Source of the DNA: Moniliella sp. 'wahieum'
Taxonomy: Eukaryota; Basidiomycota; Moniliellomycetes; Moniliellales; Moniliellaceae
DNA: 64,000 nucleotides
Direction: 5' to 3'
Assembly: GCA_003971905.1 (NCBI GenBank)
Contig: RSEE01000063.1
Coordinates: forward strand, 248,001 to 312,000
Below the pieces are notes generated by a model that was not told the origin of the DNA, ran no database searches, and was given only the letters and a program-made list of their open reading frames with translations. The number at the start of each line of letters is the position of its first letter. The stretch's first letter is position 1. This document shows, piece by piece, positions 28,656-63,048 of the stretch. The translations under genes were made by a program, and so were the position numbers.

Positions 28656-28913
28656 TCTGGAGACTAGGATGCACGCGCCTCGCTACCCCATGTGCTCACC
28701 GTTGCACTTCAACTGAAAGTTCGCCTCGTGTGCATCGGCTTCCACACGGCCGAGATGTCCCACCCTTGTGTCCGGGCTGTGGCATTACCTTCATTTCACC
28801 AAGTGCCTCGTCACCAGCACTGGTGCAGTGCTTGGTTCTTCGGCTTCCTATAGGGTAGTCCCTGCTGCCACAATCTATTTGTGTCAATCGTGTCTTCATC
28901 TAATGGTCTGCTT

Positions 28914-28934
28914 TGAAGCTTGAAGCTTGAAGCT
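28914..28934 (+). repeat. Heptad array (TGAAGCT)3
   Basis: Three perfect copies of TGA plus palindromic AGCT, followed by TCA. First clear perfect triplet of the heptad family in this window. Confidence 0.9.
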
Positions 28935-29218
28935 TCATAGAGATCTTTTTGATTCAGTCACCAGTCACCAGAGAGGACGGAACCCCCTGCGAGCTCGTGA
29001 TGCATAACGTCATGTCTCCTAGAAATTCTATCGGACAGCAAAGCTGTGAATGCGGTGGTGGTTCAACGACAGGTGGGACTAGGCCCAGGAGAGAAAAGAA
29101 CGAGAGAGAGGGATCGTGAAGTCGGGCACAAGACCAGTCTGGGGCCCGATCGAGCTTCAACGTTCAACAGCTGGTTCGGCGCATCCATATGCTTCCACCG
29201 AAACATGTATCCTCCGAG

Positions 29219-29265
29219 CATCGATCATCGATCATCACATGCACCACATGTCACATGTCACATGC
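29219..29265 (+). repeat. Heptad cluster: ATCGATC units then (TCACATG)2
   Basis: Two TCGATCA units at 29,221-29,234, then CACATG and two perfect TCACATG units at 29,245-29,264. Another perfect (TCACATG)2 is at 29,482-29,495. Confidence 0.85.
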
Positions 29266-29799
29266 GTCACCCCAACCGTCGTCTCTCCGGCCCGGGCCAC
29301 ACCAGTGCCACACCAGCCTGCCACACACTCGCCACTCAGAAGCGCTCAGAACTCGGAACTACCCACTCGGCACAGCCATGGTGAATTGTCACCACGTCAC
29401 CCTGTCACCACGCTGACACCACATCCCACATGTCCAACTGGTCACGCGGTCACGTGCCACCTGTCACAGGTGTCCTGTGCGTCACATGTCACATGTCTCG
29501 GTCTCTTACGCTTACTGAGTAATAACCACCTACTGAAGAGACTGGAGGTACTAGGTACTAGGCACTGAGGACACTGGCGATACTGCGTACTGACTAGGGA
29601 ATAGTGACTGCCCTCAGGAGTTAGTCACTACTGTCACGAGCCGTGCTGCTCAGCCTGAGCGCTGCTCACGCTGCACGACGTCCAATGTGCTACAGCACCC
29701 ACACCGACAGGGGACCCATGGCGCGTGACGTGACGGAGGAAAGGTACAATTTCGGATAAGGTCCCGAGACCGGGCCCCGGGTACATGGTACATGGCGCA

Positions 29800-29835
29800 T
29801 GATGCATGAGATCATGAGATCTGAGATCTGAGATC
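29800..29835 (+). repeat. Composite heptad array: TGATGCA, TGAGATC, then (TGAGATC)3
   Basis: TGA+TGCA at 29,800-29,806, TGA+GATC at 29,807-29,813, one extra A, then three perfect TGA+GATC units at 29,815-29,835. The tetramer changes while TGA stays in register. Confidence 0.88.
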
Positions 29836-30604
29836 GTAGATCGAGAGACGAATGAGATTCATGATGCATGGATGCATGAAAGGAGAGACGGGACCACGCA
29901 GGGATGTGGTGTTGCATAGCCTGTGTGTGGGAGAAGCCAACGTTGAACGTCGATCAATTTGATCGAACTAGGTCAAGTTGAATATTGAATCAAGTTCCAA
30001 GCTCTCCCAGGCTCTCCCAAGTATCCCATTCCCACCCTGAGCACCCAGGAACAAGACATGGGCGGAAAGGGGGGGGAGACAGCGAGCAACGAGGCGCAGG
30101 GCTGCCAGTGGGAAGTCAAGGAGGGCGACATCTGAGAGAGGAAACAAGAAGGTCGTGGGACGGGAACGAGAATATGAAATGGGAACAGGAACCAAGGAAG
30201 GAATCAAAGCAGGAATCGAATGAGCTCAAAGGGAGCGATATGAGTAGGGGTTCTGAGGATCCACTCAGAGGCCATCTTGGTTGCGCTGCTCAGGTTAGGA
30301 GTAGAGCGCGGGACGAGGATTTCAAGGGCCAGGAGGGCAGAACTGGTGTGCTGAAAGAGAGAGAAAGAAAACAAGAGGTGGCGCCAGGACGGTGGCGAGG
30401 GAAAGGGGTCACCCAACAATTTCTCGTTGTGTTGGGCGCCGGAAGGTCAAAGCGGACAATCAATATAGGACGAGAAGAAGAAAGGTCGGAACCCACTGGT
30501 ACAAGAAACAGAGTGAATACCAGTGGAATGCGACGGCATCGTAAAACTGTAGGCCGGCCCTGTGCTGGCGCAGGTCCGATTGGGATAGAAAAGGGTAGGC
30601 CCTA

Positions 30605-32032
30605 TTACCCGCTCCGGGTCGAGTGGGACGGATTGGCCGAGTCGAGGAAGGCTGGGTGGTGCAGGCCGCCACGGCGGGATGCACGTCGCGGGGCTCGGGA
30701 AATGGTACGGATCGGCACTGTTCCCGATCCCGAGGAGCTGGACGTTCCAGAGGACTGGGAAGCTTTTCCTGCAGCAAGCTGATGGCCAGAGATGCGTTTA
30801 CGATGCACCGACGATTGGCACGTTGCGCCAATACCAAGGCGAACGCACCGTGCACATGGTCGTGCATCGTCACAGCCTTTGGAAGAGCGTTGGCAAGATA
30901 AGCAGGCGTTACGCACTTGCTTGCGTTTCTTGCGCACCTGCGGCTTGGCACCGTCGCGATTCCCTTCCACGGGGAGGAGGAGGAGCCGATGGGATCGTTG
31001 GGATGACTGGGAACAGGCTGGGTGGACGGTACGAGAGCAGAAGGGGAAGGGGGCGGCGGCTCAGTAGTTCCTTCTTTTCCGCTGCGCTTCTCTGACATCT
31101 CTCCAGCTCCTCCGGCTTGCCAGTACGGAAAAATAGACGAATCCTCCTTCAACCAGTGCAGCATCTTCTGGTTGCGGATCAGGCGCACCGAGCCCCCCAA
31201 AGGATGATGTTCCAATTCCCTTCGCGCATGGGGCTGCCGAGAAAAAGAATTAGAGCCCGTCAGCTCGGAAGGGTCCATGGGGCTGGTACAATCCAAGGGT
31301 GTGGACCCAGCGGCCGTGCCAGGGATGGAAGCACGGTAGGCGATCGAAGGTTGACTGAGGATTGGAGCAGAGGCCAGCGCCGGGGACGATAGCCGGCCCC
31401 GATTCTCCAGCCAGCGAGCTTGGCTTGGCTCCCACGGAATGGAACGATAAGGGGGAGCGGGAGGGTCGCCTGAGAAAGGGAGGGGATGGCCCGGCGGGCG
31501 GAGAGAGATGTGTTGAGGAAGTGTGCCGGGGAAAGGGGTCGTTGATGTGGATAGAAGGCTGGAAGAAACGGGAGCTGGTCGAATTGGCGCTCATGCCCGA
31601 ACACAAACTGAGACGGTAGGGCTCAACATGGATTTCCCATGCCGGGTCGAGTGAGGTGCGGGTCTGCAGAAACGGAGGGGCAAGGGGGAGACGGGGATGG
31701 GCCGGGGGACTGGAGGAGGGCAACGACGGTGGGGGCTTGGAAAAGGTTGCAAGGTGCCTGGGATACCCCTGAAGGTGGCCCGTTTGTCCACTACAGCCTG
31801 CTCTGTGCCGGGGGAGATGTGCATGGCAGGGCCCAGCCGGTAGAGGCGGCGTGTCGAGGTGCGGAGAGGGAGATGGTGATGACGGGGGTGGGGATGCTGC
31901 TGCGGCAGAGGCAGGTGGCGGTGGCGGGTGGGTGTGAAGCCTACCGACGTGCCGGAGGCGTGCGGAGGATGCGACCCAAGGAACGGGGACGGTGGATGGT
32001 GCGGAACACGCACGCCACAGGCGGCTGCTCAA
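30605..32032 (-). CDS. Zn(II)2Cys6 fungal transcription factor
   Basis: Near its C-terminal end (about 30,785-30,910) the minus strand encodes KKRKQVRNACLSCQRSSKGC followed by DDARPCARCVRLGIGATC: a complete C-x2-C-x6-C-x5-C-x2-C-x8-C zinc cluster with the CDxxRPCxRC core seen in Ert1/gluconeogenesis-type factors. Upstream is a Ser/Pro-rich region with MDPSELTGSNSF (ATG at 31,278) and further Pro-rich sequence to about 32,030; one frame jump lies near 30,960. After the cluster come a basic stretch, a Ser/Gly run and a stop at 30,605. The position of the start is unresolved. A zinc cluster close to the C-terminus is unusual for the family, which normally has it N-terminal. Confidence 0.65.
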
Positions 32033-32156
32033 CCGTGCAACCGAACGTTCAACCCAACCTCAGCCTCGGCCGCACCTCAGCCTGAGGCCTGAAGCTCAGG
32101 CGAGAGCTGCTGGGAGCGGTGCCGCAACTATGTACATCCTCGGCGCCATCTTCGCT

Positions 32157-32235
32157 GCCAGAGCCAGAAGCCTCCAGAGCCAGAAGCCTCCACAGCCAGA
32201 AGCCGCCAGAGCAGCCAGGGCAGCCAGAGCCTGCC
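32157..32235 (+). repeat. CCAGAGCCAGAAGCCT tandem repeat
   Basis: About four to five imperfect units of a CCAGAGCCAGAAGCCT-like sequence, degenerating into CAGCCAGAGC units. Non-coding as far as can be seen. Confidence 0.65.
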
Positions 32236-32517
32236 CACTGCGCCACCCGCCCTCTCCGATGCAGGCACACACCGGATGTCTCACAGCGCATAGCACCTGC
32301 GCCGATCGGAGACGACCCATTCAGAACCGGGGAGCCGCGCGGCACAGCGGCACTGCTGAGCATTAGGACGGTGCCTACGCCGTTGCCCTGTTGCATGCTG
32401 CAGTTACAGTGGTTGTCCCTTCGGCCTTAAGAGCCTAAGCTTAACGCGCGAACGCCGAACGTCACCCGTCATGCGTCACCCGTCAAGCTATCGTTACAAC
32501 TACGTACGTTCACCGTT

Positions 32518-32665
32518 AGAAAGTTTACCGCTTCAGAGCGGTAGCCGGTAATATAACCGGTAGCCAGTACAGTTGGTAGCCAGTAACCATAAGAAACTAG
32601 TTTCGGCCAGTATAAATAGAACCGGTAACTAGTAACTGGTAACCGGTAACCGGTAATCGACCGGT
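32518..32665 (+). repeat. GGTAACC/ACCGGTA heptad cluster
   Basis: A dense patch of ACCGGT, ACTAGT and CAGT-ACC motifs, ending with back-to-back GGTAACC units at about 32,637-32,655. It fits the heptad rule with A in place of C as the single spacer base. Confidence 0.7.
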
Positions 32666-34546: not shown

Positions 34547-34757
34547 TGTTGACCACCAGTGGTCTAGAGCCCATCGGCCTTCAGTGACACGTGGCCCGAT
34601 CCACACAGTGCACCGGGGCAGTGAGTTCCGACCCTTCCACGGGTTTCCACTGGCCTCCAGGCCAGGAGCCTATCAAGGCCCATAGCTCTAGCTCTCCTTA
34701 GCTCTTGAATGCCATCTCCATCGACCATCGCCAGCATCGCTAGCTAGGCCTGTGACA
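34547..34757 (+). repeat. 5' LTR of copia element
   Basis: 211 bp, begins TGTTGACCACCAG and ends GGCCTGTGACA; identical by eye to the 3' LTR. Preceded by the TCCCA target duplication. Confidence 0.95.
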
Positions 34758-34903
34758 GAGTACAATCTGAAGCACCCCACTGGCGCAAAGGATCAATACT
34801 CAGCACCACCATCGGCGCCCACCGTCACCACCACCACCCCAACGCCACCATCGGCACCACACACCAACCAATTCAAAAAAAAACAAAGGAAAAATCAGCC
34901 ACC

Positions 34904-36136
34904 ATGCCCCCCGAACTGGAAGAAAACACCCCTCCTCCCGAAGTCTCTGTCATCGAAGAGGCGCAGGACATCGACGAACCGACCACCACCCCTGTCTCCG
35001 ACCCGACCTGGCAACAGGCCCTCACCGACGTCAGAGACAACCTCCTCGCAAGCACCCGCGCGTTCAAGCCCACCAGCGCTGACAATCTCCGCTCCACATG
35101 CCGCTCGTTCGCTACGGATGCACACACGGCGGCGTATGGACCGAAGAGCAAGAAAACACCGGGCGGAAAGGAAAATTGGATCTACACGCTCACCCTCGCG
35201 TTGGAGAAATATGTATTGGCCGTTGAATTCACGAAGCCGCAAAACACCCGTGAGGCCCTTGCATCCGCGAGTGAGGACATGGCCGAGCTTCGCCACGCTG
35301 AGAAACGCGCGTCAAAAGAGATCGAGCGTACCAACGCGACGCGCAAGGACGCCTTCCGCGACCCCACCGAATATGTGCTCTGGGAGCCCTCCATCCTCAA
35401 CATCCTGGACCGCATCCACCCCGCCGCGAAGGACATCGTTCGCTCCGGTCCATCGTCACCACACTACGACTCGTCCCTCGATCTACGCCTCCAGAACCTT
35501 CTGTGGTCCCACCTCCCGAACGACGTTCAATCTGCCATTATTGCACAGGACAACGTTGACACGTCAGCTGACTTGCTCCGTGCCCTGCGAAACAAATACG
35601 GTACGGTCGACTGCAAGACGTATCATGAATTGTCCAGTCGCTTTCACCACTGCTACCAAAACCGGCGCAGCGGGAGCGCGTTCCTATCTGAAATGGGGAC
35701 GCTCCGCAACCGGATCAGCGCAACCACACCGATGTCGGACGAGCAATTCCGCCGTATCCTCGTCGGGGCCCTCCGCGACCCTGGTGACCGTCGCCGCCTA
35801 GAGCACATGACTCTGGCGGAGACAATGCAAGACGTGGAGAGAATCCCAGCGGACCCAGAGTACAGAATTCCGTACCGGGGCCGTCACCCCCGGACCGCCA
35901 ACTCGGGCGCTGGCAAACACGACAGCGCGGGATCCCAGCAGCATAGCGGGGGTCCTCCTGCCGGTGCATCTCCCCGTAGCGGGGGTGCTCTTGCGAGAAA
36001 GCCGTCCGGCCACACCGGGGTTCCTTCGAACAACAAATGGCACCGCAACAGCTCCGCGCGAGCGCACATTGCCACCGAAGACGACGTCTCCGAAGGGGAG
36101 ACCCTGTCTGTGGACCTTGCCCTATCTGACAAATAG
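34904..36136 (+). CDS. copia gag-type region (fossil element part)
   Basis: Gag-like region of the retrotransposon: an acidic N-terminal part, then a helical domain of the kind annotated as copia-type gag (UBN2/Retrotran_gag), then a Gly/Ser/Arg-rich nucleic-acid-binding tail. It is the structural polyprotein of the element. Confidence 0.75.
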   Translation: MPPELEENTPPPEVSVIEEAQDIDEPTTTPVSDPTWQQALTDVRDNLLASTRAFKPTSADNLRSTCRSFATDAHTAAYGPKSKKTPGGKENWIYTLTLALEKYVLAVEFTKPQNTREALASASEDMAELRHAEKRASKEIERTNATRKDAFRDPTEYVLWEPSILNILDRIHPAAKDIVRSGPSSPHYDSSLDLRLQNLLWSHLPNDVQSAIIAQDNVDTSADLLRALRNKYGTVDCKTYHELSSRFHHCYQNRRSGSAFLSEMGTLRNRISATTPMSDEQFRRILVGALRDPGDRRRLEHMTLAETMQDVERIPADPEYRIPYRGRHPRTANSGAGKHDSAGSQQHSGGPPAGASPRSGGALARKPSGHTGVPSNNKWHRNSSARAHIATEDDVSEGETLSVDLALSDK

Positions 36137-36599
36137 GAACTCGCGGGCAACCAGGACATCCAGTCTCGTCACGACTCGGGCGCGGATCCTAGCATCTGGA
36201 AGGATCTCAGGGTATTCAAAACCCTCAAGCCCAGCAACCGCTCAATCGAAATCGCTGATGGAAAACATATTAAAGCCAGTGGACGCGGAACATGTAGCAT
36301 CGGTATCAAGTGTACCGACGGCAAATGTATCCATGTAGACCTACCCGGCAGTCTATACGTCCCCGGCATAGCAAGCAATCTCACGAGCGTAGCGCAAATA
36401 AGTGACGCAGGCCACGCATCCTGGTTCGCCCCCCACCGAAAAGGTATCTGGTTAAATGACAAGCATGGCAAATATCACCAAATCGCGGATTCCTCATACA
36501 AGCTGAACATCGTCCCGAAACCGACACCCACAAACGAACACGCGGCCAAAGCTGCCGTCGCCACCCAACACACACGCAGCCAACACCATCGAGCACGTC

Positions 36600-37791
36600 A
36601 TGTACGTTCACCAACAGTACAACCACGCCGCGCTAGACCTACTCCACGACACTAACCGCCAACGCGCGAGCGAGCCTCCGCGTCAGCCCTGCCCAAATCC
36701 GACGCATCCGCCCCTTCTGGCATTGTCCCACCTGCACAAAAGCTCTGGCCAAAGCGCCCAGCCACCCTTCGCGCCACGGCCGCCGCATTTCGGAACGTCC
36801 TTTCGAAGTACTGCACGCCGACGTAGTCGACCTCCCTCGCATCACTGGCATGGGACATGGATACGCCCTGGTCGCGGTTGATGACTGGAGCCGTTACACC
36901 TTCGCTGTTCCCCTAAAGACGAAAGGACAAGCCACGGCGGAGCTGAAAAAACTCATCACCCGCGAGCAACGCATCGGAAAGGACCGTCTGCTTCGCATCT
37001 TGAAGACAGACAATGCCCCCGAGCTCACCAGCGCACTCCGTCCGTTCCTTGAATCCGAAGGTATCACGACGGAAACCACCATACCAGGCCAAAGTCAATC
37101 AAATGGGGTGGCCGAGCGAGCCATCCAGGCAATCACCACACGCGCGCGCCAACTCATCATCGCCTCGGGCCTCCCGACATCAAACTGGTGGCAGGATGCC
37201 TTGCTGGCAGGGTGCTGGACGCACAACCTCATGCCACCGACATCTCCACGCCAGGGCACACAATCTCGGGCTGAGCTGTACAAGGGGTCACCCCCACCGC
37301 TGCCAATGCACGCCTTCGGATCCTTGGCGTACCTTCACCTGGCCCAGGACCAACGTGACCATAAGCTCAGTCCGCGGGCTGTCGAAGCCATGCTCGTCGG
37401 GTACGACGCAGGTCGAGGTACAAAGGGTTGGCGCTGGGCTGTGTACGACCCGTCCATGGGCACGTTCCGATCCCAATGGGCAAAACCATACAAGTGGACC
37501 CAGCGCCAATACCACGAGGTTTTCCCCGACCGCTTTCCGCCTGACGTATCTCGCTTCCCCGCTCAACCCCTGCCTGACAGAACTATGACTGACACTGAAA
37601 CCAAAAAGGGAGAAGAAAAAATGAACAAAATTGAAGTTGCAAATCCCAACACACCACCGAGAATCAACACTGATACTGACGCGACCATCGCAAGACAAAA
37701 CGACACCCATCCAACCACCCCCACCACCAGACGGTACCCCCCCGGACCCACCAGCGCCGTTTTGACCTTGACTGGGCACAGCTCCCCGTAG
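36600..37791 (+). CDS. copia pre-integrase/integrase region (fossil element part)
   Basis: Integrase core recognised by VDDWSRYTFAVPLKTKG, TDNAPE and QSQSNGVAERAIQ. It lies between gag and the reverse transcriptase, the copia order. Protease-type sequence presumably lies between gag and this part. Confidence 0.8.
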
Positions 37792-38070
37792 CGGACGACC
37801 CTCATGATGGTGACTTCCACGCACACGCTGCCGCGCTGCCTCCGGTTCCCCTCCCTGACGGTAGTCGTAGTCCTGCGATCGGCCTACGCTTCCCACTGCC
37901 CGACACTGCCCTGCCCGCGTACAGCGACGGTCTCCATCCGCCTGAATACAAGGCGATGATCGCCCTTAGCGAGCCAGGGCCGCACGAGCGCATCCAGCTC
38001 ACCAAGGACGGAGTACCTGTTGCACCCAAGACAATGAAGGGCCTCCAATCACACCCCCTCATTCGAACCA

Positions 38071-39615
38071 GTGCTGGAGGCGATGCGCACGGAAATCGAC
38101 ACCCTAGCCCGCTACGGCACATTCGAAGTCGTCACGCCCCCTCCAGACGCGCAGCTGCTGATTGGTCTATGGCGCATCAACACCAAAACGGACGCGGACG
38201 GAAATTTCCTACGCTACCGAGCCCGTCTCGTTGCCGGGGGCCACCAGCAGGATGCTGACACATGGGGACAAACATTCGCCCCTGCCGTGCGCACTCCTGC
38301 CATCCTCAGCCTTATCGCCCTTGCTGGAAAGTTCGGCCTCCACCTCTTCACTGCTGATGTGCACTCTGCCTATTTGAACGCTCCCCTCACGGAAAAAGTG
38401 TACCTCCGCCCACCCCCATTCTTTCCCGAGGAAAAAGGCAAGGTCTGGCGTCTCCGGAAAAGCCTATATGGCCTCCACCAATCCGGCGCAAACTGGGCGG
38501 TATTCATCCGTGACTTGCTCCGCGGAGACATGGGTTTTGTACAATCTCTGGCTGAGCCGTGCTTGTTCATCCGACCCCGTAAAGGCGACACGGTCCTCCT
38601 TGCCGTGCACACCGACGATCTTCTCATCGCCTGCACGTCTCACGCACGCTACGATTCCTTCCTCACTGAGATCAACACCCATATCGAGGTGCGGGGAAAC
38701 GGCCCCCTACACTACCATCTTGGCTGCCAGTACGACACCATAAACGGGAAACTGTACCTTAGCCAGCCAAAATTCATTGAGGAATCCATTGCCAAACATG
38801 AGGTTCCGCCACCCCTGGTTATGGGCCTCCCCCACCCCAGCAAGATGATCCCCGCGCGCACCGACCCCGAACCGCCCGCACTGCCCGCCGAGAGACGCGA
38901 CTATCAAGCCAAAGTAGGATCTGGGCTGTGGGCTGCCCGCATGTGCCGCCCTGATGCGCTGTTCGGCATCTCAGCTCTAAGCCGAGCAACTGCCGATCCC
39001 TCCAAGGCCCACCGCGCTGCGGCAACAAACTTCCTCCGCTACCTCTACGGTACCAAGGGCTACGGTCTCCGACTAACACCCGAGCCTAACGCACCCGCTC
39101 TCGCGCTATACACGGATGCCGACCTGGCTGGAGACCCTGACCAATGGCGTTCCACGTCGGGATGCCTGCTTTTCGTCTACGGGGTTCCAGTGTCCTGGAG
39201 GAGCGTGCGTCAACCCAAGAGCGTCACCAACACTGCTGCGGCCGAATATACGGCGGGATATGAGGGCCTCATTGATGCGAACTACGTTAAAAACATCTTA
39301 CTGGAGCTCGGTGCCATCACCTCAGACGAGCCCATACACTGGTACTGCGACAACATGGCGGCACTTGCCTTGGCCGAAAAAGTGGGCAGCACGGGCAAAC
39401 TACGTGAGCTGAACATCCGGTACCACAACGTACGCCAGCATGTCGACTCGGGCGAAGTCAAAATCGCGCACATTGCTGGAAACGAGAACCCGGCCGACAT
39501 CCTCACCAAACCAGCCACTAAGGTCTCACTCCTGGCCAACTTGCCTCGCCTCAAGCTTGAGGACGTTACAACCTTCCATCGTACCACTGAGACCTCTGGC
39601 CAGCGGGGGTGTTGA
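38071..39615 (+). CDS. copia reverse transcriptase and RNase H region (fossil element part)
   Basis: RVT_2-type reverse transcriptase (RARLVAGGHQQ, TADVHSAYLNAPL, AVHTDDLLIAC) followed by copia RNase H (YTDADLAGDPDQWRSTSGCL, YCDNMAALALAE). It ends just inside the 3' LTR boundary. Confidence 0.88.
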   Translation: MLEAMRTEIDTLARYGTFEVVTPPPDAQLLIGLWRINTKTDADGNFLRYRARLVAGGHQQDADTWGQTFAPAVRTPAILSLIALAGKFGLHLFTADVHSAYLNAPLTEKVYLRPPPFFPEEKGKVWRLRKSLYGLHQSGANWAVFIRDLLRGDMGFVQSLAEPCLFIRPRKGDTVLLAVHTDDLLIACTSHARYDSFLTEINTHIEVRGNGPLHYHLGCQYDTINGKLYLSQPKFIEESIAKHEVPPPLVMGLPHPSKMIPARTDPEPPALPAERRDYQAKVGSGLWAARMCRPDALFGISALSRATADPSKAHRAAATNFLRYLYGTKGYGLRLTPEPNAPALALYTDADLAGDPDQWRSTSGCLLFVYGVPVSWRSVRQPKSVTNTAAAEYTAGYEGLIDANYVKNILLELGAITSDEPIHWYCDNMAALALAEKVGSTGKLRELNIRYHNVRQHVDSGEVKIAHIAGNENPADILTKPATKVSLLANLPRLKLEDVTTFHRTTETSGQRGC

Positions 39616-39820
39616 CCACCAGTGGTCTAGAGCCCATCGGCCTTCAGTGACACGTGGCCCGATCCACACAGTGCACCGGGGCAGTGAGTTCCGACCCTTC
39701 CACGGGTTTCCACTGGCCTCCAGGCCAGGAGCCTATCAAGGCCCATAGCTCTAGCTCTCCTTAGCTCTTGAATGCCATCTCCATCGACCATCGCCAGCAT
39801 CGCTAGCTAGGCCTGTGACA
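39610..39820 (+). repeat. 3' LTR of copia element
   Basis: 211 bp, identical by eye to 34,547-34,757. Preceded by a G-rich tract (GCGGGGG) that is a reasonable polypurine tract and followed by TCCCA. Confidence 0.95.
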
Positions 39821-40147
39821 TCCCATCTGTACCTTCGGTATGTTCCGTTTGTGGGGGCTATGCACAAGCATGCACGGGCCAGTCAGGCTAGTCAGGCTCC
39901 TGACAACGTTTTGGACCAGGCCCCGAGCGTCGTAACATCATCGCAGCCGTGTCATCATGTTATGCACGTGACGCCGTCACAAGAAACATACAACAGGGAC
40001 CAATGCTCTCACATGTGACACGTCCATTCGGGCGTGTAGCTGGGCGTATCCTGCTGTAGCAAGCGAACCACACAGTATAGCTCTGGGGGGGCGCCCTGAG
40101 GCGCCCCACTGGCGCCACCATGTGCCTCTCGCCTGTTAATCGAGCTT

Positions 40148-40168
40148 TCAACGTTCAACGTTCAACGT
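40148..40168 (+). repeat. Heptad array (TCAACGT)3
   Basis: Three perfect TCA+ACGT units in tandem, followed by TTCAAAC. Confidence 0.9.
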
Positions 40169-40265
40169 TTCAAACAGTTTGGTTCGACCGGGAACCACAG
40201 ATCGAGATCGCATATGGAGTCAGTCATATGTCACGTGCCACATGTCCAAAGCATGCACACCGCGC

Positions 40266-44125: not shown

Positions 44126-44230
44126 TCATGCACATCATGCATCATGCAACATCCAAGCCCACAAACTGGCTTGCCTCCTTATTGTGGACGCTCCAACGCC
44201 TTCCTCGGCCTCAGGCCTCACCGGTCAGCG
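44126..44230 (+). repeat. Heptad arrays (TCATGCA)n and TCAGGCC-TCACCGG-TCA
   Basis: TCATGCA at 44,126-44,132 and two perfect copies at 44,135-44,148. At 44,212-44,228 TCA+GGCC passes directly into TCA+CCGG and TCA without a change of register. Confidence 0.8.
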
Positions 44231-47800: not shown

Positions 47801-48445
47801 CTCTATCCGCCCTCTTCGTCTCTCAGCTCTTCAGCCAAGACCCAGTCAAGTCGCGTTGGTCCTCTTCTAGCCACGTCGAGGCGGCCCCAAGCAAAAGTCC
47901 GCGCTTTGACAGTGTTTGTCCTCCGGTGCCAATCCCCGTCCCTGAGCCCCGAAGGCTTCAGACACGTTACTATAATACTGCCCTAGTCGGTGTATACTTC
48001 CGCAGCCTTCATTGTTGCCACGCCTGCAGCCACCCCTGCTATACGCTGTGAGCTATACTCCTTTTGCCCCTATATATATACAGCTCCGCTCGGGCGTACC
48101 AGCCTGCCCAAGCACGAAATTACCGTGAGTCGCCCCCCTTTAATTGGACTTCTAAGGGATCGTACCCCCTAAGGCCTAAGGCCTAGTACAACGGGCGTGC
48201 CAGGCGGCCCCCCTGGCGGTTCCCGTCCCTGAAGAGGCCTCTGAGGCTCTCAGGCCTGACAACTCCCTACGGCCTCTATGGCCTTGGCCCCGTCACGTGT
48301 CACGCTTCACGCGTTCGGACTCTCCGGCTCCGACCCTGAGCACATGTATGTGCACCGCTAGTGTTGACAACTGTCAGCATGTCAGCCTCAGGTCCTCATC
48401 AAGGCTGCAGGCCTGAGGCCTCAGGGCCACAGGGCGGTAGACACG

Positions 48446-48465: not shown

Positions 48466-48510
48466 CTTTCCTGAGGTCTATGCCTGACGCCAATCGATTT
48501 TCGATACGGA

Positions 48511-48536
48511 TCGATGATCGATGATCATCGATCACG
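48511..48536 (+). repeat. Heptad array (TCGATGA)2 then TCATCGATCA
   Basis: Two perfect TGA+TCGA units, then the inverted version, making a larger palindrome. Confidence 0.8.
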
Positions 48537-52425: not shown

Positions 52426-52439
52426 TGATCGATGATCGA
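52426..52439 (+). repeat. Heptad array (TGATCGA)2
   Basis: Two perfect TGA+TCGA units. Confidence 0.85.
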
Positions 52440-52575
52440 TAACCGAAAACCCCTACGAGGCGTCCGCGCCAGTGTGGCTCGCGCTCAGCGCTAAGGCTCA
52501 GCGCCCAACCAGCAGTCATGGGATCATGAGATCGATTAAGGAACCTAGCTTCGAAAGCACCACAACGACGACAAC

Positions 52576-52663: not shown

Positions 52664-52984
52664 CAGCGTCAGCGCTGAGGCTTAGCCTGAGGGCCTGAGG
52701 CCTGAGGAGGGAAGTACAAAACCAACGGGGCAAATATGCACGTGGCCTGCAAGGCTGCAAGCCTAGCTGGGCTGAGCGCTGAGACGCCGCAACGTTAGGA
52801 TCTAGCTTTCACACGCATTTCACATCCATTCAATATTCATTGAGTTCCTAGCTACTCGTTACTAGCTTTACATTGAAATCTTACCAGTTCTCGATTATCC
52901 TGAGCGGCCTGAGCGCTGAGCCTGGGATTCTGAGATCTGAGATTGCATCACATTCACATGCTTAGCCAATGTCCAGTCGATCAC

Positions 52985-53255: not shown

Positions 53256-53269
53256 TCATGCATCATGCA
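53256..53269 (+). repeat. Heptad array (TCATGCA)2
   Basis: Two perfect TCA+TGCA units plus TCATG. Confidence 0.85.
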
Positions 53270-53716
53270 TCATGGATCATGTGCTCCAGCATTTTCGGGT
53301 CGGGCGAATGTGTTGGTGAGTGTCACAGTCTTCATTGTAATCGAGTTATGACAATCATGTCCGCGCTTTCTTTCCTAGTTCGTCACGCGTCAGGCCTGAG
53401 CCTGAGCGCTGAGCCTCAGGCTCAGGGCACCTTCTTCTCTCTGCCAATTAACAAATTAATTGTCTCCCTAAGTATTTCTCTTTTGCTAACACCGTGGGCG
53501 TTCTTTTCTTACACCACACACACTTCAGCGATTAATTGGTATCGATGTTCTTATACGCAAATTTGTGGTCCGACGGTTGCATATATGGAAGCAGGTTTTT
53601 CCCCCTGGTTTTGACGACGCGAGGATACTACGGCACCAAGACGGCGAACAAGTTGTTTGCGCATTGGAAGGAGTGGCTACTAAGTCTCAGTGGAAATGGT
53701 TCCTCGTCGGATGTCA

Positions 53717-53880
53717 ACCACGTTCCTCCGTGACCACACGCGCTTCCTAGGGTACGGGAACGGATGGCGTGAGCCGGAGGGTCCTGATATCCTGGCGACC
53801 CCCCTGGTTCCTTGACCCTGCTGGTGGCGCCCCAAGTAACCCCCGCAAGATGAACGGTTAGGTTTAGACGTAGTGTTCCC
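53717..53880 (+). repeat. Dispersed repeat, copy 2
   Basis: Direct-oriented partner of 19,120-19,290 (see that entry). Followed by GTCCCAGCCTTAAGC, also found after copy 1. Confidence 0.6.
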
Positions 53881-54485
53881 CTGTCCCAGCCTTAAGCTCT
53901 GCCAATGAAATGGAAGCAGCGATGGAAGCACAGATGATTCCGAGAATCAAAATGTGTTGAAGAAATCGGGCCATACCAGCCCCACCACCTCAGGATCAGA
54001 TCTCAGACGGAGAATTAGTTGCAACAGAGCCGCCATCAGACATGGTGTCCAGGCGAAGTGGTGCCGGAGGGAGCCGCGAATGGTCAAGCTTCAAAAAATT
54101 GACATCTGAAGGAAGGAACTGGGGATACAACAAAGAAGGGAGGGGCTCACTGTGGGCAGGGGGTGCGCAGCTTCCGAGTCAAACCTGCGGCTGGATATAA
54201 GCGAGTGTCACCAATGAACTTAAGGGGCCGTGCTGGGGAATCCTATAGCGCTCCCCTCTCTCATCGTGCGATCTCATCAAAAGTATACTCTCCACGATAT
54301 ATACAGGCCCTGTCATCGACTTCATCACCTCGATCAACATCGTTCTGTTGGGGCCCGTAGTCCCGTACGTAGGCCAAAGTGCTTTATCACCATTTCTCCT
54401 ATTGTGACCTCCGAAGAGTCCGCGTGTATATTCGGCGTGTTCGAACCCTTGTCTCTCTTCCATCACCAGGTGTGGCAGAAGGCCC

Positions 54486-54510
54486 TCAACGTTCAACGTT
54501 CAACGTTCAA
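54486..54510 (+). repeat. Heptad array (TCAACGT)3 TCAAC
   Basis: Three perfect TCA+ACGT units and a partial fourth. Confidence 0.92.
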
Positions 54511-55886
54511 CCACCTTCGTATTAGCTCCACATGATGGGATTTCCAGCGGTTCTCCACCCAAAATCTGGGTTCCTCCGAATCTCGTGTTCAAAGGTTTAA
54601 CTTCAGACGTGAGTGGCTTTGGGAATGCACAACGTTGCTCTAGGGCATAGAAGACACAGCCCTGCTTTGTCTATAGAGACTTTTCTTCTTTAGCCGCGGT
54701 ACAACTGATGCACAGTAGCTAGTATGCATAATGCCGTATAGATCACTAGCCCTACCCTCTTGTGGCTCTGAGATCTGAGATTTGTGATGAGTGACCACAT
54801 TCTAACGCATGGAACACGTGGCGCTCTGCTGCTATACGGAAATCATGTAATCATTTCACAAAAATTGGGGGTAGAGATACAGTGACTGTTACAACAGCGT
54901 GTGATTCGTCCCATCGATTATACAAGAGGGCTCGGCATTGGTATACTACGGGTGACCGGTCACCATAAGGATGGACCAAGTGCTATGTGCTTGCTGGATT
55001 TTGGGGCCAGAGTAGAGCAGCGAGAAGTGGAAGGTGCGGGAAAGGGGAGCCGGAAAAAAACGAGACAAATACAACCAAATTGGCAAGAGACACAATAATC
55101 AGGGGTGTTTGTGGGACCAGCGCTTCGCGGGCTTTCGCCCCACGTTGCGCCCCTCGTCCGTGACATGTGACATGTAAGTCTGTGCCACTCGTTCTATAGC
55201 TATGCTGTGCTCAGCCTGGGACCGTGGGATCCACACTTCATAAGTTTAGAGCTTAGCTCTGGGACTCTATGTTTACACATTCACTGGTCACGGTTACAGG
55301 TACACAGCAACGCGTGCTCCTCTGTATACCGGCATATAATAATAGGAAAGGGTTATAATTAGGATTTTAGTGATTCATGCGTTACTAGTATAATTGCGAT
55401 TAAGTGAGAACGTTGAGCGAATGCGGTGCACGCAACGGAGACAGCCGCCCTTCTTTTAACGGTTAAACGTTTTAAACGCTAAAGCGGTACATTTATACGT
55501 GGGGGAGGGCGGGGTCGAGAAAACACCATGACATGTGGCAGCCTTTCATACCACGGAGGTCCATGGCCTCTCAGATCTCAACGACGATCGATATCCTCAG
55601 TGCGTCGCCGCGAAGGGAGACGCAATCGGTCTTAGTAGTGACGGGTGACGCGCAATGGTACATACAATACGCGTCCATGTTCAACGACGTTTTCTCAACC
55701 TTTTCTCAATCTCCTGAAGAAAACCTGGGAACCTGCGCATTAGGCCTGGGCCCCTAAGTGCCTGAGTCTCAGGCCCGAGGGCGTCTTCTTCAGCCCTTTC
55801 AGCCTTTATGCACTTTATGAGCTTCAGAGCGCTCAGCCCTTTCAAGCTTCAGGCTTATTCATTAATCATTCTTCAATCAAAAAGCT

Positions 55887-55925: not shown

Positions 55926-56728
55926 TTCAGTAGCATCAATATGCATCATCAATCAACGTAATAGCGGGTTATGCATGGTTATGCTTATAATTATGCACCA
56001 CGCGGTGCAGTCTGTGCACATGCAGCACATCCTCCTTCTCTGGAGTCCTCATGCACTCATGTATATACTCAGTAATACTCAGTCTGAGTGCTATTACTAA
56101 GTACTAATAATAATCGATCAATCAAAATGGGTCTCTATTCTCACTTAATTTTTGTTTTACCAATCTCTTCGTGTGCCTTAAAACGTTAAGTCATGATGTG
56201 CATGATGCATGAAGAAAAGACCGCGCGCTACCCCTGCTTCCCCTCGTCAAGGAGAGTCCGGCTCTTCCGGTTACTTCGTCACCAAAATACTCTTGACAAG
56301 TCAGTGACTAGTAACGGATGACCGGTGACCAGAGGACGCTAGTAAAGCTTCGCTGGAAGCTGGAAGCTCGAGGAGCTTGAAGCTTGAGGGCCTGAGGCTA
56401 GCTTGAACCTATAATAGCTTGAAGTTTGAAGTCGCTGGTACTATATTGTTCGCTTCAGCTGTCACATGTCACTCATGTCACATGCAATGTCACACGTCAC
56501 ATCACACCTAACAAGTACTAAATACTAATTATTGAGCTGAAGGCGCGGGCCTGCTTGGTGGGAATGCAGGGTCTAAGAAGACGGCCTAAGAATGACTTGC
56601 CCCGGGAGAATACCCTTGTGTCAGATTTATTTGTACGCATAGGCGCAGAGGCTCAGCCCTCGCGCTCATGCCCACGATCACGTCGATCACATCGATCACA
56701 TGCACATACCATGCAGATGTATCATGCA

Positions 56729-56835
56729 TCACGCGTCACGCGTCACGCCTCATACTGAGGTCTCAGATCCTCCTGAGGCTCCCGGTCACCGGTCACCGGT
56801 CACCGTGACCTGACCGCCTGACCGGTCAGATCTCA
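56729..56835 (+). repeat. Composite heptad block: (TCACGCG)2, (TCACCGG)3, TGACCGG-TCAGATC-TCA
   Basis: Two perfect TCA+CGCG units plus TCACGCC (56,729-56,749); TCA+CCGG units at 56,786-56,805; and at 56,819-56,835 TGA+CCGG, TCA+GATC, TCA in unbroken 7-nt register. The richest heptad block in the window. Confidence 0.88.
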
Positions 56836-57025
56836 GAACGCAGAACTCAGATCTCAGACTGAGTGGTTTCCTCGTGTTGAACGTTCGTTGAACGTTGAGG
56901 AGGTTGAACGTTGACGCGCTTACGAATGGGCTCCACTTGCTCCACTCCTTCCCCACAACATCGCTCCCTAAGGCCTTAGCCTAAGGCCTAATCCTTGCCT
57001 GGAGTCGCTTAGCGGTAAAAGTACC

Positions 57026-57046
57026 TCAAGCTTCAAGCTTCAAGCT
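57026..57046 (+). repeat. Heptad array (TCAAGCT)3
   Basis: Three perfect TCA+AGCT units, then TCATATAG; a further AAGCTTCAAGCTTCAAC lies near 57,080. Confidence 0.92.
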
Positions 57047-57385
57047 TCATATAGTTCAAACGTTCACACCTCAATAATAAGCTTCAAGCTTCAACCTCGT
57101 TCTAGAGGCTTCCGTTCCAAAACGTTGTCCTGTGTGTTGGGACACTAGCGCAGTAGTGTGTCAGCGGCATAGTCGGACTCTGGCGCTCACAACCACTTCC
57201 ACACGACAGCTAGCTCTCTTCTAGTTCCGCCCGGGCGGAAGTCTGGAAGTCCGACTTGCCTCCTTCTCGAAGCTTCGGTAGTCGTAGCTCAGTCTTCCCT
57301 CGCTTCCACTATCGCCTCCTCCTCTTCCTCTCCGCTATTCTCTCCGCTATTTTCTCTGCTATCGATCACCAGCAATCAATATTAT

Positions 57386-57411
57386 TCAACGTTCAACGTT
57401 CAACGTTCAAC
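57386..57411 (+). repeat. Heptad array (TCAACGT)3 TCAAC
   Basis: Three perfect TCA+ACGT units and a partial fourth; same form as at 40,148 and 54,486. Confidence 0.92.
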
Positions 57412-60400
57412 CCCTATCGCCTATTTGACCTCCAGTTCTTCTTGATTGCCGTTCCGCTTGGCATCAGGATCCCGTCACATCACTTGTTTTCTGTCTCATG
57501 CTGATACAGGTTAAGCTTCATGCAGCTTTTCAGGCTTCAAAAAGCTTCGAGCTTCAAGGAAATCATAAGAACTATAGAAGCCGGTAAGTGCTGAGCGCTG
57601 GGACAGAGTGAGCTTGGCCGCTGCTCAGCGCTCATTAACATTTCACATTGCTCTGTTGCTGAGGCTTAGGGCCCGTTCGCGAAGCATTTTCTTACGATTT
57701 TGGCAGCCAAGTTAGGGCTTAGTGCTCAGGATTAGCGCTCAAACAACCCGGCGAGCGGAAAAGAATGATTGAGGATCGAGATGATCGATCATACGCTGAG
57801 TTGTATACACGGCGGGTAAGATGCATAACGCATGACACGCATCATGTATGACGCATGGCGTGATCAAAAGACTCTCCAGAGAAGGTATGAAAGCGGGATA
57901 ATGGACGGGAACGAGAGAGGTGAACAAGTGTCATACCGGATTTTGTCATGACGGAGTAGAATACGGGAAGGGAGCACAACAAAAAAGGGGGGATTAGACA
58001 TATGGGGAAAGCGGCCATGAGCCAAAGTTGAGAAGGAAGTTGCGCCCAACAGGGGATGAAAATACCAGGAAAGAGTAGCACCACACGCCTTTTGTGTCAG
58101 AGGACAGACACAGCGAGAGGCATGTAAAAGGAAGAGACACCTGTTTAAGGACCACACAGTGAATGGAACCCAGAGAGCGAATTATCTTTCCTCGGTCGCA
58201 CCTCACAGCTAGTATAGGGTCCACCCATAACACAACAAGACTAGAGAAACGATCAACTTCTTTTGCTTCTGTCACTGTGGCTGTACAGGAAGGCGATGGA
58301 TGTATCCATAAATAGGGTCAGTGAAGAACAAGGCTCAGAATGTGGGGATTTGGGATCTGTTGGACGGCAGAAAAGTCGGCCCTGCTAAAAGTGAATAATG
58401 GTGGGGAGCCACGGAAAAGAGGAATGCTAGGGAAGTGTGATGATAAAAGGTGCGAATGCTTGTTTTCGTACTATGGTAATACGTAAGAGTGGGACGGAAA
58501 GGGGAGCAAGAAGGAGAGATATGTATATGACATGCCGTGTATCCGTGATAGTTGGAAAGCTTTTGCCACTTGTGGAGAAATTGCTTTATTGGCAGTGGGC
58601 AGTCAGTCTATATGACCTACAAGAAGGCCCGATATTCTTTCCGTGGTGATGGACACTAAAATACAGGACACTCTTATGACAAAAAGCTTTTACACAAGCA
58701 TATTAGGGAGAATAACGGTAGGCTTTTCCTGACGTAGACATTTTGTTGTTGGGGAGTATATAGCCAGGGCCCTACGAGTCTTCCAAGGAGGAGATGAGGC
58801 CGGAAAAAAGCCAGCAGACCAAAGGGCACAGAATGGACTGGAAGAATCAAGAGCGATAAGAGAAAAAGGGGCCTGGGAGAAGAGCTAAGAGCGTCGAGCA
58901 TGGTCCATCTATTTGTTTTATATCAGCCTCAGTGTCTAGTGCGAAACACAACATATTCACAGCCATAGAGCCCCAAACATGGGCCCATGAGAAATGAGAC
59001 GGTCCAGTAAGATCTTTCCAACAATGATGAACTTTTCCCAGTGGCCTTAATCGTGTAGCATCCTCTAACAAGCTGTCTTATTGGCAAAGAGGGGGGGAAA
59101 CGATTCTTGTGCATGCATTCGTGGTTTACTATAGTGGTGTCTTTGTCGCCATCCACCGCCGGCATGAGAAAATGATGATGCCTGTTCTGTAACAGTCCGG
59201 GCTAAACGAGGGAGACCAAGGTCCTGTCAGAGGTAGGGGGAAAGGCAAGATCGTTCGTGGGAGGAAACAGAAGGCATCAGGCAGAGAACAGAAGCAACAG
59301 GGAAGGGAAGAGCAAGAGACACAGGATGCAGAATTCGAAATTGGAGCGAGCTTAGTCATTCGGTGACAATGCCTGTTCTCTGCCCGTAATCAACAGATGT
59401 AGACGTCTCCTTCTGTGCACCACACCTTTCGGAACGCAAGAACATTTTGGTCCTTTTTCTCTCCCATCAGTCCCTCATGTTGTGATCCGTCTCGATCCCA
59501 GATCATCCAAACGCTTCTGTTCCCACCACAATTCCTAGTCCGAGAGGGTCATCTGTATATGTTTTCCTTTCCTTCCACGCCAGGATTCCTCGTCATCCCT
59601 CATAAACCCGGTTCAGTTGATGTGATTATCCTGGATAAAGCGTACACACTTTCGTGTACTCCCTTTTGTAGTGCTCCAAACTATGCGAGTGGCCGCGTGA
59701 GCAAGTACAACCCCCTAGGAAAGGGGAAAATGCTCAATATAAGTATAATTGGCGAGATATGATTGTCCTTCCTACCCCGTGGATGCACACCTCCCCCCGA
59801 TCTGTCAGAACTCAATCAATACGAAAGAAGGCGCCAATATCACCTCTTCAAAGAGCATCTCTTCCAACTCTCACCAACTATAACTACTATGACACTTGAA
59901 ACCCATGATCAGCAGAGACGGCGAAGCCTCTTGTCTGAGAACGATACTGCCACATCAGGAAGAGCCGCTGAAAAGAGAGGATGTGCCCCATCAAAGTTGG
60001 ACATATACTTCGCCCCAGATAGCGCGTCTTTTGTTCCGAGATCCACAACATCCCCCCACCATGCTCGTTCCCCACTCAGGTCTTCAGAGCCTGAAGTGTT
60101 TCCTCTTCTCGGGTCAAAAAGTCTTGTGATCCCACATCCTGCGGCCACTTTTCGTAGGCTTTTGCGGAAGAGAACCCGCGGCGCCTGGATTTCGGCCGTT
60201 GCGCGAGAGAGGGGTGATGCCCAACATCTCCTTTTCCCAGCAAGAATGATGATGTTGCCCAAGGACGGGGCCACCCCACTAAAGGTGCCCCGTTATCCAC
60301 CTCACCCACTAGACTCTGCTTGTCATGGACGGGCTCCGGACTGGAGTCCAACCTATCGTTCAGGGGTGCGTTTTCCCTGGGAGGAGGACAGGCCACTGAC

Positions 60401-61181
60401 GGTTGATCATCGAGCCCGAACACTACTGGCAGATCCGAACGGAGATAGAGACGAGGTGAGGCCTCCTAGTTGAGGCGTCGGCTCGAGTGGCAAAAGGTTG
60501 CGTATGCACCGGAACGAAAAGGACTATTCGCATGCCTGTAGTATATGGTCCTGAAAGTGTGGTTGTGGCCAAGGAAGGTTATTGACACAGGAAAAGACAG
60601 GGTAAGACAGGTCCGGTCTAACAGAACAGCTCACAACTCTTGGAGAATCGCCCCATGATCCGTACAGAGGAGACTGAAAGCAGGAGATCCACGGCAATGG
60701 ATGCCGGGTCGAAAAGATACGGAGAAAGATCAAGATGTGGTCGTTTTATCAACTGCCACATTGAAACCCTAAGAGTAACAAAGGCGTTGCCTGGGGGTCA
60801 CAACGATGGATTATCCAAAAATGTCGCACAAAGGACGAAAGACGAGAAGAGGAAAAGGCCAAGTGTGGATGAAAAAGACGAAGTAGACGAAAGAAAAGAC
60901 GAATAAGACTAAATGGTCCTCTAGGGGGAAAGGAACAAGGATCAAGGGTCACATGGGTCATATGCAGGCAGGATCTAATATAAGGAATACAATAGATAAC
61001 ACAACGAATAAAAGAGGGAAAGGAATTGGGATAAGTGCCTCCCGGAAGAATAACAGACCATCAGGAGGGAAATGTTCTCCCGCACTCAGCTGGCAGGAAC
61101 GGAAGAACAGTCAAAACTAGAAATGCTCAAGGTAAAGGGCAGGTTCTCCTCTCCTCATCAGCTATATAAATGCAAAAGGCA

Positions 61182-61195
61182 TGATGCATGATGCA
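61182..61195 (+). repeat. Heptad array (TGATGCA)2
   Basis: Two perfect TGA+TGCA units. Confidence 0.85.
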
Positions 61196-63048
61196 AGAGG
61201 CCCGTGAGGCCTGAGGGGAGAACTTCTCACGATGTAAAGGAGACGCTTAGATGAGGAACCTGACCTCCAGATCCGGAGGCTCAATTTCGAGCTCACTTGC
61301 GTCCAAGACCAAAGACCAAATAATTGAAGTAGGATAAAACTGGCAGGGACTCAGAAGCTATGCACTACGGACCACCTCTGCTCGGCCATCCGAAAGGGAG
61401 AGATCAAGCTGGTTGCATATAGATCCATGGGAACATGCTCCGTTAGCATAACCGAGTTCATATGTTGATGAGACCTGGAGTCCGGATGGTCCTCGAGGGT
61501 GATGCAATCGCACTGTTGGTGGTGGTGGTGTCTAAGCCAACCAGCAACGCCTACTGAGGAACATCATGCAGCGAGTCGCCACCAGGGGCTAAGCTGCGGA
61601 GAACAAGGAAAAACAGGAGAGAAAAACAACGGAACTCCTAGGCCTGAGGAGGAACTGAAAGGACATTGGCCAAAGCACGAGCCACCCGGTGGCTCAACAT
61701 ATGTTTGTTCAACGTTCAGACAAGCCAGCCTACTTTGCTGTCTTGGAAGCCTGGAGATGTAGACCTATAAAAACCCACATGCAAGGGAGACAAAAAAGGG
61801 GGAGGATGAGCTCGGTCAGCCCGCGTAACTTATTACACACCGGTACATATTAGTAGGCAGGCGTCAAGAATGAGGACTTCTGATGAACTTTTGCGGATGA
61901 ACTTTTGCGCATGTTGAGCCCCATAGAACCGACAAAAGATATACTAGCAATGCACTGTGGTTGTACTTAATCGATGCTCCGGTAGAAGTAGTTCTGGAGA
62001 TAGGTACAGAGCCTATGCGAAGGGTAGAGGGTCTTAAAGCACACTATCGCGACGTAGAGGAGCGACCGGGCGGATAAAAGACAGGTGATGCCTACCACGC
62101 AGGACGGTTATTGTTGCGACGGTGACTGCCTTCATCGATCGCGGAGCACTCCCGGCCTCATTAGCCCGATGCTCCGCGGACTCGGAGGACTGCTGATGCG
62201 CGCGTACCCGCGTAAGCCAACGACTAGTAGCCTTCTCCTGTAGCCTTGTCCTGCTTCCTACCATCAAGCCTATTATCTCTCGCCCGCAATCGATCGCCTA
62301 CGCTACTGACCTATAAACGCTTCAGCATCCATTGCGGTCTCCATAGTCGAGTTGACGAGGACGTCGCTACACGGTGCGGAGCGTCTCGCCCCAACACAAA
62401 GGCAATATGGCAGTCGTTTGAAGGCCTTAGACCTCAGACTAAGGCCTTAGGCCCCTTGGCCTTAAACCCGTTTTTATTACTGCTGCTGTTTTTCCGGGCA
62501 GGTTACCAGTTACTAGTTACCAGTTACCCCGGTCACCGGTCAGTCACCCCATTCCTATGTCGGCGAGTTAGTAGACCGATAGCACTCTTGGCACAAAAGT
62601 TTATTCAACGTCAGATTAATACACTAACCCAACTACCTTATGACGTCTTTCGATGATCTTGACGATCGATGATCGGGCATATAGGATTCCCTGCTCAGGC
62701 ACTCAGGCGCTCAGGCCTCCGGCCTGAAATCGGGAGTGGCTTGGATTAGCGCTTAGCTGATTTCAACTACGGAGGTAAGGCCAGCAATCCCCAGGTTAAT
62801 TCCTGATTATGCGCGTTGGCGTGTCTTTTACGCCCGTAGTTGGTGCATTGTTCCAACAGGCCCTCAGCAACATTCGAGATGCCGAGCCCGTCCGAGCGCA
62901 TTGAGCCGCTGAACCACTCGGCCCACGAATGCCTTGCTGTAGTTGCTGGTGATACTGGTGATACGTCTGGGTATAAAGCAAACGCACCCAGACTCTCGGG
63001 TAGGCGCAGTGATTCTGCCCACCGTCTCCTTTCGTTTCTTCCATCATC

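Follow-up and report, generated by a model that had tools for sequence, protein, structure and literature searches.

What writes short tandem arrays whose units look unrelated, and yet all obey one formula? The question is raised by a stretch of 64,000 nucleotides from the basidiomycete Moniliella sp. 'wahieum' (bases 248001-312000 of contig 63 in a 69.5-Mb assembly of 223 contigs), hereafter the window, in which a reading made from the letters alone (the sequence-only reading) had described many heptameric micro-repeats composed of TCA or TGA plus a palindromic tetramer. Our analysis shows that the pattern is real, strong, genome-wide and rule-bound. We consider it probable, at roughly 0.7, that the micro-repeats are scars of DNA breaks, for which the simplest source would be a cut-and-paste transposon of the hAT type that inserted and was afterwards excised. 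The class would then be the outcome of a break-and-rejoin process and not a repeat family with a rule of its own, so that the earlier interpretation is partly supported.

The sample consisted of the window together with 20 further 10-kb stretches on 19 contigs, taken at hand-picked places, in total 264 kb, to which the counts refer unless another scope is given. In addition to this sample, parts of a second copy on contig 52 (C52) were compared. The original site is written abTNAcd, with primes for complements; PAL4 is a palindromic tetramer, k the number of bases trimmed and g the number of palindromic (P) nucleotides. First-order and fifth-order Markov models served as controls, and reversed strings were used for the genome-wide counts.

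A single formula with T-N-A as the constant part

In the window, 35 of the 60 perfect period-7 duplications consist of TCA or TGA plus a palindrome, and 39 do so if TAA and TTA are allowed. Symmetric units make up 98 of the 184 perfect period-7 duplications in the sample, and the edge is A....T, that is, T-N-A plus PAL4, in 98 of 98; the edges G-N-C, C-N-G and A-N-T were found in none of them. The base N is C or G in 84 of these units and A or T in the other 14. The idea of one formula for all units was correct, but the constant part is T-N-A rather than TCA or TGA, and the exclusive T-N-A edge upholds the argument that plain slippage would not select the formula. Thirteen of the 16 palindromic tetramers are represented in perfect dimers and all 16 in shorter units. 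The six perfect triplets listed earlier were recovered within one base, at positions 28913, 29815, 40147, 54486, 57026 and 57385.

In the sample, 261 units are TNA-PAL4-TNA with the same N on both sides, as compared to 6.8 expected units, 8.3 under the first-order and 28 under the fifth-order Markov model, which confirms the proposed excess over control sequence. These comprise 221 units of the form TSA-PAL4-TSA (5.8 expected) and 40 of the form TWA-PAL4-TWA (1.0 expected). For other lengths of the palindromic gap, counts equal the background or exceed it slightly (observed/expected 34/32.5 for gap 2, 47/30.0 for gap 3, 17/7.0 for gap 5 and 5/2.0 for gap 6), and gap 11 (33/0.2) represents two units. 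Across the genome, the 21-mer (TCAACGT)x3 has 204 occurrences versus 2 for the reversed string, and the 12-mer TCACATGTCACA has 2,638 versus 6 for its reversed control. Dimers of period 6 are more numerous in the sample than those of period 7 (284 versus 184; trimers 17 and 22), showing that the class is special and not the period. The result that the sequence-only reading had named as refuting, period-6 arrays in equal or larger numbers, is accordingly seen for dimers at large, but not for the TNA-palindrome class.

The arrays had been placed between 28,900 and 62,750 of the window. This range (28.9-62.75 kb) does contain 96 of the 109 window units, but units are also present in 17 of the 20 stretches sampled elsewhere. 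The sampled stretches hold 152 units per 200 kb, which extrapolates to about 53,000 units in the assembly, with the sampled places being hand-picked and not random. Single units are balanced in orientation (71 CC versus 69 GG). The assignment to spacers was also correct: only 8 of the 261 units lie in open reading frames (ORFs) of at least 300 amino acids, where 70 were expected from coverage, corresponding to a density of 0.11 per kb inside these frames versus 1.31 per kb, or 11.7-fold sparser. Because a change of +7 shifts the reading frame, purifying selection suffices to explain this avoidance.

The palindrome is dictated by the flank

Among the 224 period-7 runs that hold a unit, lengths of 5 and 6 matched bases dominate (60 and 49 runs), while 3, 4 and 7 matched bases account for 8, 10 and 17 runs. 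The single-palindrome runs include 37 of the form y'x'TNAxyy'x'TNA and 20 of the form TNAxyy'x'TNAxy, their 13-mers number 23 and 12, and just 2 are exact symmetric 14-mers. In its typical form, the unit is a TNA-containing direct repeat of 5 bp with a 2-base filler, the filler being the reverse complement of two adjoining bases.

For a site abTNAcd, the products are abTNA-cdd'c'-TNAcd or abTNA-b'a'ab-TNAcd. This flank rule is obeyed by 158 of the 177 single units with the same N, of which 72 match the right flank (cdd'c'), 53 the left flank (b'a'ab) and 33 both, leaving 19 that match neither. By chance, about 12% would fit. As a control, PAL4 between other equal trinucleotides gave 119 of 366, a value that is probably too high, as one array can contribute through its rotations. 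No strong motif was found beyond TNA. The palindrome had been regarded as a free choice, and many tetramers do occur (all 16), but in these 158 single units it is the flank that sets the tetramer.

Related forms with other periods

A 7-bp duplication abTNAcd with g P nucleotides and k trimmed bases implies that periods other than 7 must exist, and such forms were found. With TNA counted at the predicted place, and the fifth-order Markov mean given second, the plain duplication (k0g0) was observed 10 times against 0.5, the form with one P nucleotide and period 8 (k0g1) 7 times against 0.25, and the form with two P nucleotides and period 9 (k0g2) 10 times against 0.05. The corresponding values are 32 against 1.55 for k1g1, 9 against 0.4 for k1g2 (period 8) and 53 against 2.0 for k2g2; ANT, GNC and CNG reach only 0-4 at the same places in these six cells. 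Small numbers were obtained for k2g3 (4 against 0.2) and k1g3 (1 against 0.15), and the k3g3 class is visible from an A at the expected place in 30 of 50 cases. The signal is weak in the cells where trimming exceeds the P nucleotides, namely k1g0 (8 against 2.2), k2g0 (9 against 4.95) and k2g1 (7 against 2.4), and GNC is commoner there than TNA (13, 19 and 17).

Exact non-palindromic 7-bp tandem duplications have TNA exactly centred in 8 of 33 cases, and the other phases reach 0-3. The core of the pattern is a TNA-centred 7-bp duplication with 0-3 P nucleotides. Duplications of 7 bp with a symmetric centre would be expected from a transposase that acts as a dimer. Period 7, once viewed as the fundamental property, gives way to this core, given the related period-8 and period-9 forms. 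For the 12-mers, a 5-bp duplication of the long terminal repeat (LTR) type was rejected as an explanation, with plain 5-bp duplications that start with TNA being near background (9 versus 4.95).

Chains of different palindromes

Twelve of the 48 multi-palindrome chains mix palindromes, and 9 of these 12 keep one N throughout. Successive hits on one TNA would predict the order ab-TNA-[b'a'ab]-TNA-[cdd'c']-TNA-cd. Read by eye, both outer flanks fit this order in 6 of the 9 same-N mixed chains and one flank in the other 3, where the chance of a fit is about 1 in 16 per outer flank. Mixed same-N chains are not produced by slippage alone.

In the window, a mixed chain TCA-TGCA-TCA-CGCG-TCA-CGCG-TCA lies at 56722..56745. 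A TCA+TCGA unit adjoins a TCA+CATG unit at 29219..29264, and a TGA+TGCA unit is followed by a TGA+GATC array at 29797..29835. Arrays of equal units are TGA+AGCT with two palindromes (28913..28935), TCA+ACGT with two (40147..40169) and TCA+AGCT with three (57026..57049).

Empty and filled sites in a second copy of the locus

The right part of the window has a second copy on contig 52, 84-95% identical by segment, which is probably the other haplotype; paralogy is the alternative. With at most 3 mismatches, 24 of the 62 chains in window 43960-64000 were matched to C52, where 13 have the same palindrome number, 5 another number and 6 are empty. In the opposite direction, 18 of the 48 C52 chains were matched to the window, with 10, 3 and 5 chains in the respective groups.

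Clean empty/filled pairs, with no more than 1 mismatch in 25 compared bases of which 22 are flanks, account for 6 of the 11 empty calls. Left out were a low-mismatch case at C52-piece position 5082, where the window still has a unit, and four calls with 2-3 mismatches. Five of the clean pairs are filled in the window, at 48515, 54486, 56462, 56905 and 62510, and the sixth is filled in C52 opposite 48335. The palindrome is predicted by the dinucleotide beside the empty site in 6 of 6 pairs, and 48515 fits both sides. The filled sites are a TGA+TCGA unit (48509..48526) that is empty in C52, a TCA+ACGT array of three palindromes (54486..54511) opposite the empty site CC-TCA-AC, TG-TCA-CATG-TCA-C (56460..56472) opposite TG-TCA-CT, GT-TGA-ACGT-TGA (56903..56914) opposite GT-TGA-CG, and AG-TTA-CTAG-TTA-C (62508..62520) opposite AG-TTA-CC. 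The window itself has the empty CC-TGA-GC at 48335..48341, where C52 reads CC-TGA-GCGC-TGA-GC.

Other differences concern the number or form of the units. The mixed chain TCA-GGCC-TCA-CCGG-TCA (44207..44227) is without one 7-bp unit in C52, the TGA+TCGA unit at 52426..52440 has one palindrome in the window and three in C52, and the TCA+CCGG array at 56782..56805 has two in the window and one in C52. The TCA+ACGT array of three palindromes at 57385..57411 is 17 bp shorter in C52. The single CG-TCA-GC at 52667..52673 corresponds to a plain 7-bp tandem duplication (CGTCAGC) in C52, and the period-9 form CATGATG-TG-CATGATG at 56192..56207, a 7-bp duplication with two P nucleotides, is 9 bp shorter there. 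The near-identical duplicate pair L039/L040 (99.6%) has arrays without differences.

Besides the TNA units, window 43960-64000 and C52 are distinguished by numerous short tandem duplications and by shifts of 1-15 bp. The load of insertions and deletions in the spacers looks high for the divergence of the two copies.

A proposed break-scar mechanism and its parallels

We suggest that a site abTNAcd would be cut with a 7-bp stagger, with a full copy of the site on each side of the break; the 7-bp target duplication of a hAT-type element would be the simplest origin of the duplicated site. Both flanking ends would be sealed as hairpins, which a Pso2/Artemis-like nuclease would nick, mostly 2 nt off the tip, so that each nicked end would carry a self-complementary 4-nt 3' overhang, with cdd'c' at one end and b'a'ab at the opposite end. 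Only one overhang would be retained upon joining, which would give the two products of the flank rule, abTNA-cdd'c'-TNAcd or abTNA-b'a'ab-TNAcd. Further events at the same TNA, or slippage, would produce arrays of equal units or same-N chains of different palindromes. Two 4-nt overhangs of which one is kept would explain the period of 7, the palindrome, both orientations and the finding that trimming rarely exceeds the P nucleotides.

At the coding ends of V(D)J recombination, Artemis nicks hairpins about 2 nt off the tip, which results in palindromic additions. The V(D)J ends are unrelated gene segments, whereas both ends carry the same 7-bp duplication here. For the DRMBL (SNM1/Pso2-type) domain, one partial match was above the cut-off (E 1.3e-4, positions 3-61 of 108).

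The closest parallel is the excision footprint of hAT elements, as left by Ac/Ds in plants and yeasts. According to PMC5873905, Ac/Ds footprints in Candida albicans and Saccharomyces cerevisiae have palindromic P-nucleotide insertions and short deletions, and the same paper refers to studies where Ds excision in S. cerevisiae is both reduced and altered in Pso2 mutants. The scars described here likewise have a duplicated target, 7 bp and TNA-centred, either plain (8 of 33) or modified, and P nucleotides that come from the flanking duplication (158 of 177 single units). In contrast to those footprints, the duplication has 7 bp with a T-N-A centre, there are mostly 2 P nucleotides, arrays are formed, and tens of thousands of scars are indicated by extrapolation while no element was found. 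The palindrome of Ac/Ds is described there as centred on the complement of the element-adjoining base; here, it is of even length and centred just past the last duplicated base, an arrangement that is similar without being the same.

Target duplications of hAT elements are usually 8 bp, with 5, 6 and 7 bp in hAT5, hAT6 and hAT7, and 7-bp duplications are known from two basidiomycete transposons, hAT7 of rusts and Kyakuja of Agaricomycotina (PMC12730594, in part). The scars share with hAT7 the duplication of 7 bp, NNTNANN here, in place of the usual 8 bp, and the occurrence in Basidiomycota, but no hAT domain match was obtained here, with controls equally silent, and a TNA centre is not mentioned in the available part of that paper. 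Kyakuja, of the KDZ group, also makes a 7-bp target duplication; KDZ domain matches numbered 0 here, with silent controls, and hairpins are not discussed in the same part. Kyakuja is without terminal inverted repeats and would therefore escape an inverted-repeat scan. Bacterial heptanucleotide repeats (PMC4692102) have the unit length of 7 in common with the present class, but they are G-rich and quadruplex-forming, and the part of the paper available mentions no palindrome or tie to the flank. Among the titles and abstract openings of the best-ranked open-access literature matches, no description of a TNA-palindrome repeat class was found. Excision footprints as such are already known; as far as these matches tell, the novelty lies in their scale here, in the 7-bp target with TNA at its centre and in the arrays that arise from it.

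Other explanations

Microsatellite slippage would attribute the arrays to hairpin-folding heptamers that expand in replication, with hairpin stability selecting the palindrome. It would account for whole-unit differences between the copies (1 versus 3 palindromes at 52426 and 2 versus 1 at 56782) and for arrays that reach at least three palindromes, and loss of units could also yield empty sites. As the origin of the units we give it a low probability. The G-N-C, C-N-G and A-N-T edges are absent from the 98 symmetric units although hairpins with G-C edges would be more stable, single units are mostly 12- or 13-mers and not 14-mers, one N is shared in 9 of the 12 mixed chains, and period-8 forms, period-9 forms and TNA-centred plain duplications exist. 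Slippage also expects the choice of unit to be independent of the flank, whereas the palindrome is predicted by it. Slippage may nevertheless lengthen the arrays afterwards. Template switching of the polymerase, as in quasi-palindrome mutation, in which the nascent strand folds back over 2-3 bases before it returns, would also copy palindromes from the flank. Template switching should not distinguish T-N-A from A-N-T, G-N-C or C-N-G, yet these three are missing or close to background, and it leaves the plain TNA-centred 7-bp duplications unexplained; the strict T-N-A requirement makes it quite improbable.

The main rival retains the breaks and dispenses with the element: a domesticated transposase or another TNA-specific nuclease would make hairpin-capped staggered breaks with nothing inserted. 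The anatomy would be the same as after excision, and an element with a 7-bp TNA duplication was not encountered. We nevertheless regard this explanation as unlikely, given that insertion is the easiest maker of a 7-bp duplication and that a single cut with fill-in provides no known reason for hairpins; the family searches for such an enzyme mostly had silent controls. Very improbable, finally, is that the units are functional elements kept by selection, such as protein-binding sites or three-frame stop signals. Their position outside long ORFs would agree with this, as would TGA or TAA at period 7, which gives stops in three frames, but all 16 palindromes occur, the orientation is balanced, presence differs between the two copies and there is no strong motif beyond TNA.

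Search for the element and points against excision

Several observations weigh against the excision of a transposon as the source, some of them on the element itself. Searches for hAT domains (PF05699, PF14372 and PF04937) and for zf-BED (PF02892) gave 0 matches, with control genomes also silent; the same result, likewise with silent control genomes, was obtained for KDZ (PF18758) and Plavaka, and these zeros do not demonstrate absence. The MULE transposase (PF10551) had 0 matches, with a positive control in 3 of 14 genomes. By eye, a TNA-type 7-bp duplication is present at none of the nine large insertions or deletions between the window and C52, where the duplications are 5 bp, 4 bp, about 10 bp, unclear or absent; a scar by itself is no proof of a former element. 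Inverted-repeat elements beside TNA were sought in the 264 kb and the window, and those with 7-bp duplications in the sample plus L041 and L001-L008. In the scan with 7-bp duplications, 9 or more of 12 inverted-end positions matched in 17 TNA-centred pairs, and 15 of these pairs are arrays by eye. Tens of thousands of scars with no visible element is a high ratio, and under the excision reading the element would have to be rare, extinct or without inverted ends.

Other points concern the units. No match in the other copy was obtained for 38 of the 62 chains in window 43960-64000 and for 30 of the 48 in C52, and the direction of change, a gain of the unit, is presumed at each of the empty/filled sites. 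Relative to runs with 5 matched bases (60), those with 6 (49) are commoner than random flanks predict. The k1g1 cell consists largely of full-palindrome 13-mers (35 single runs) and is not independent of k2g2, since k2g2 with one chance match gives the same 13-mers. The inverted forms TCA-PAL-TGA and TGA-PAL-TCA are in excess, for which the scar model has no explanation; single chains of this kind with N pairs GC or CG number 33, versus about 6 by a rough hand estimate for the 264 kb.

Two candidates from the scan, L009 4635-7157 and L022 2540-3243, were rejected, being at chance level by the non-TNA rate and having ORFs without a recognisable transposase by eye. Dispersed repeats were also rejected as a source of the scars: they look like pieces of retro-elements with 5-bp or unclear duplications, and none explains the 7-bp scars. 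The listing of these repeats covered matches of at least 60 bp other than those among the window, L041 and L042 and those between L039 and L040.

Probable mobile elements and a gene at the locus

Window 53595-53919 is the 3' end of an apparently 5'-truncated non-LTR retro-element with at least about 40 copies at 92-96% identity (40 of 834 candidates were scored). It is absent there in C52, which has a copy about 2 kb further in the other orientation. A 234-bp TG..CA repeat at 61466-61699, solo-LTR-like and with the 5-bp duplication TATGT, is also absent from C52; it has at least about 40 copies at 92-98% identity (40 of 654 candidates were scored). Window 34547-39686 contains ORFs of a Copia-type retrotransposon, whose integrase and reverse transcriptase were recognised in the translations by eye. 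Two direct repeats of 77 bp, identical at 77 of 77 positions, enclose them, and L016 matches these repeats at 80%. Opposite window 45045, C52 (L043) has an insertion of about 850 bp with perfect 10-bp inverted ends TGTCACGGGC and the 5-bp duplication CCTCT, and by eye its right end is common to repeats in L006, L018 and L025. A thioredoxin reductase is encoded at window 8672-9685 on the minus strand, with a best match of 88% to a metagenome protein; among the best 120 of 8,000 matches, basidiomycetes (Naganishia, Tilletia, Cutaneotrichosporon and others) are at 70-80%, and Mucoromycota rank lower.

Implications

If the micro-repeats are break scars, a class of apparent microsatellites would consist of repair products, each preserving a record of target site, stagger and nicking offset. 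Such scars would represent a natural end-joining experiment in a fungus, with no assay, and would make it possible to detect past transposon activity without surviving copies. A bolder reading, which we put forward only tentatively and consider doubtful, is that a TNA-specific hairpin-forming enzyme, either a near-vanished transposon with a 7-bp duplication or a domesticated, element-free nuclease, wrote the tens of thousands of scars and remained active during the divergence of the two copies. If true, this enzyme would have created a rule-based class of repeats that records both its own target and the hairpin-nicking offset of the host.

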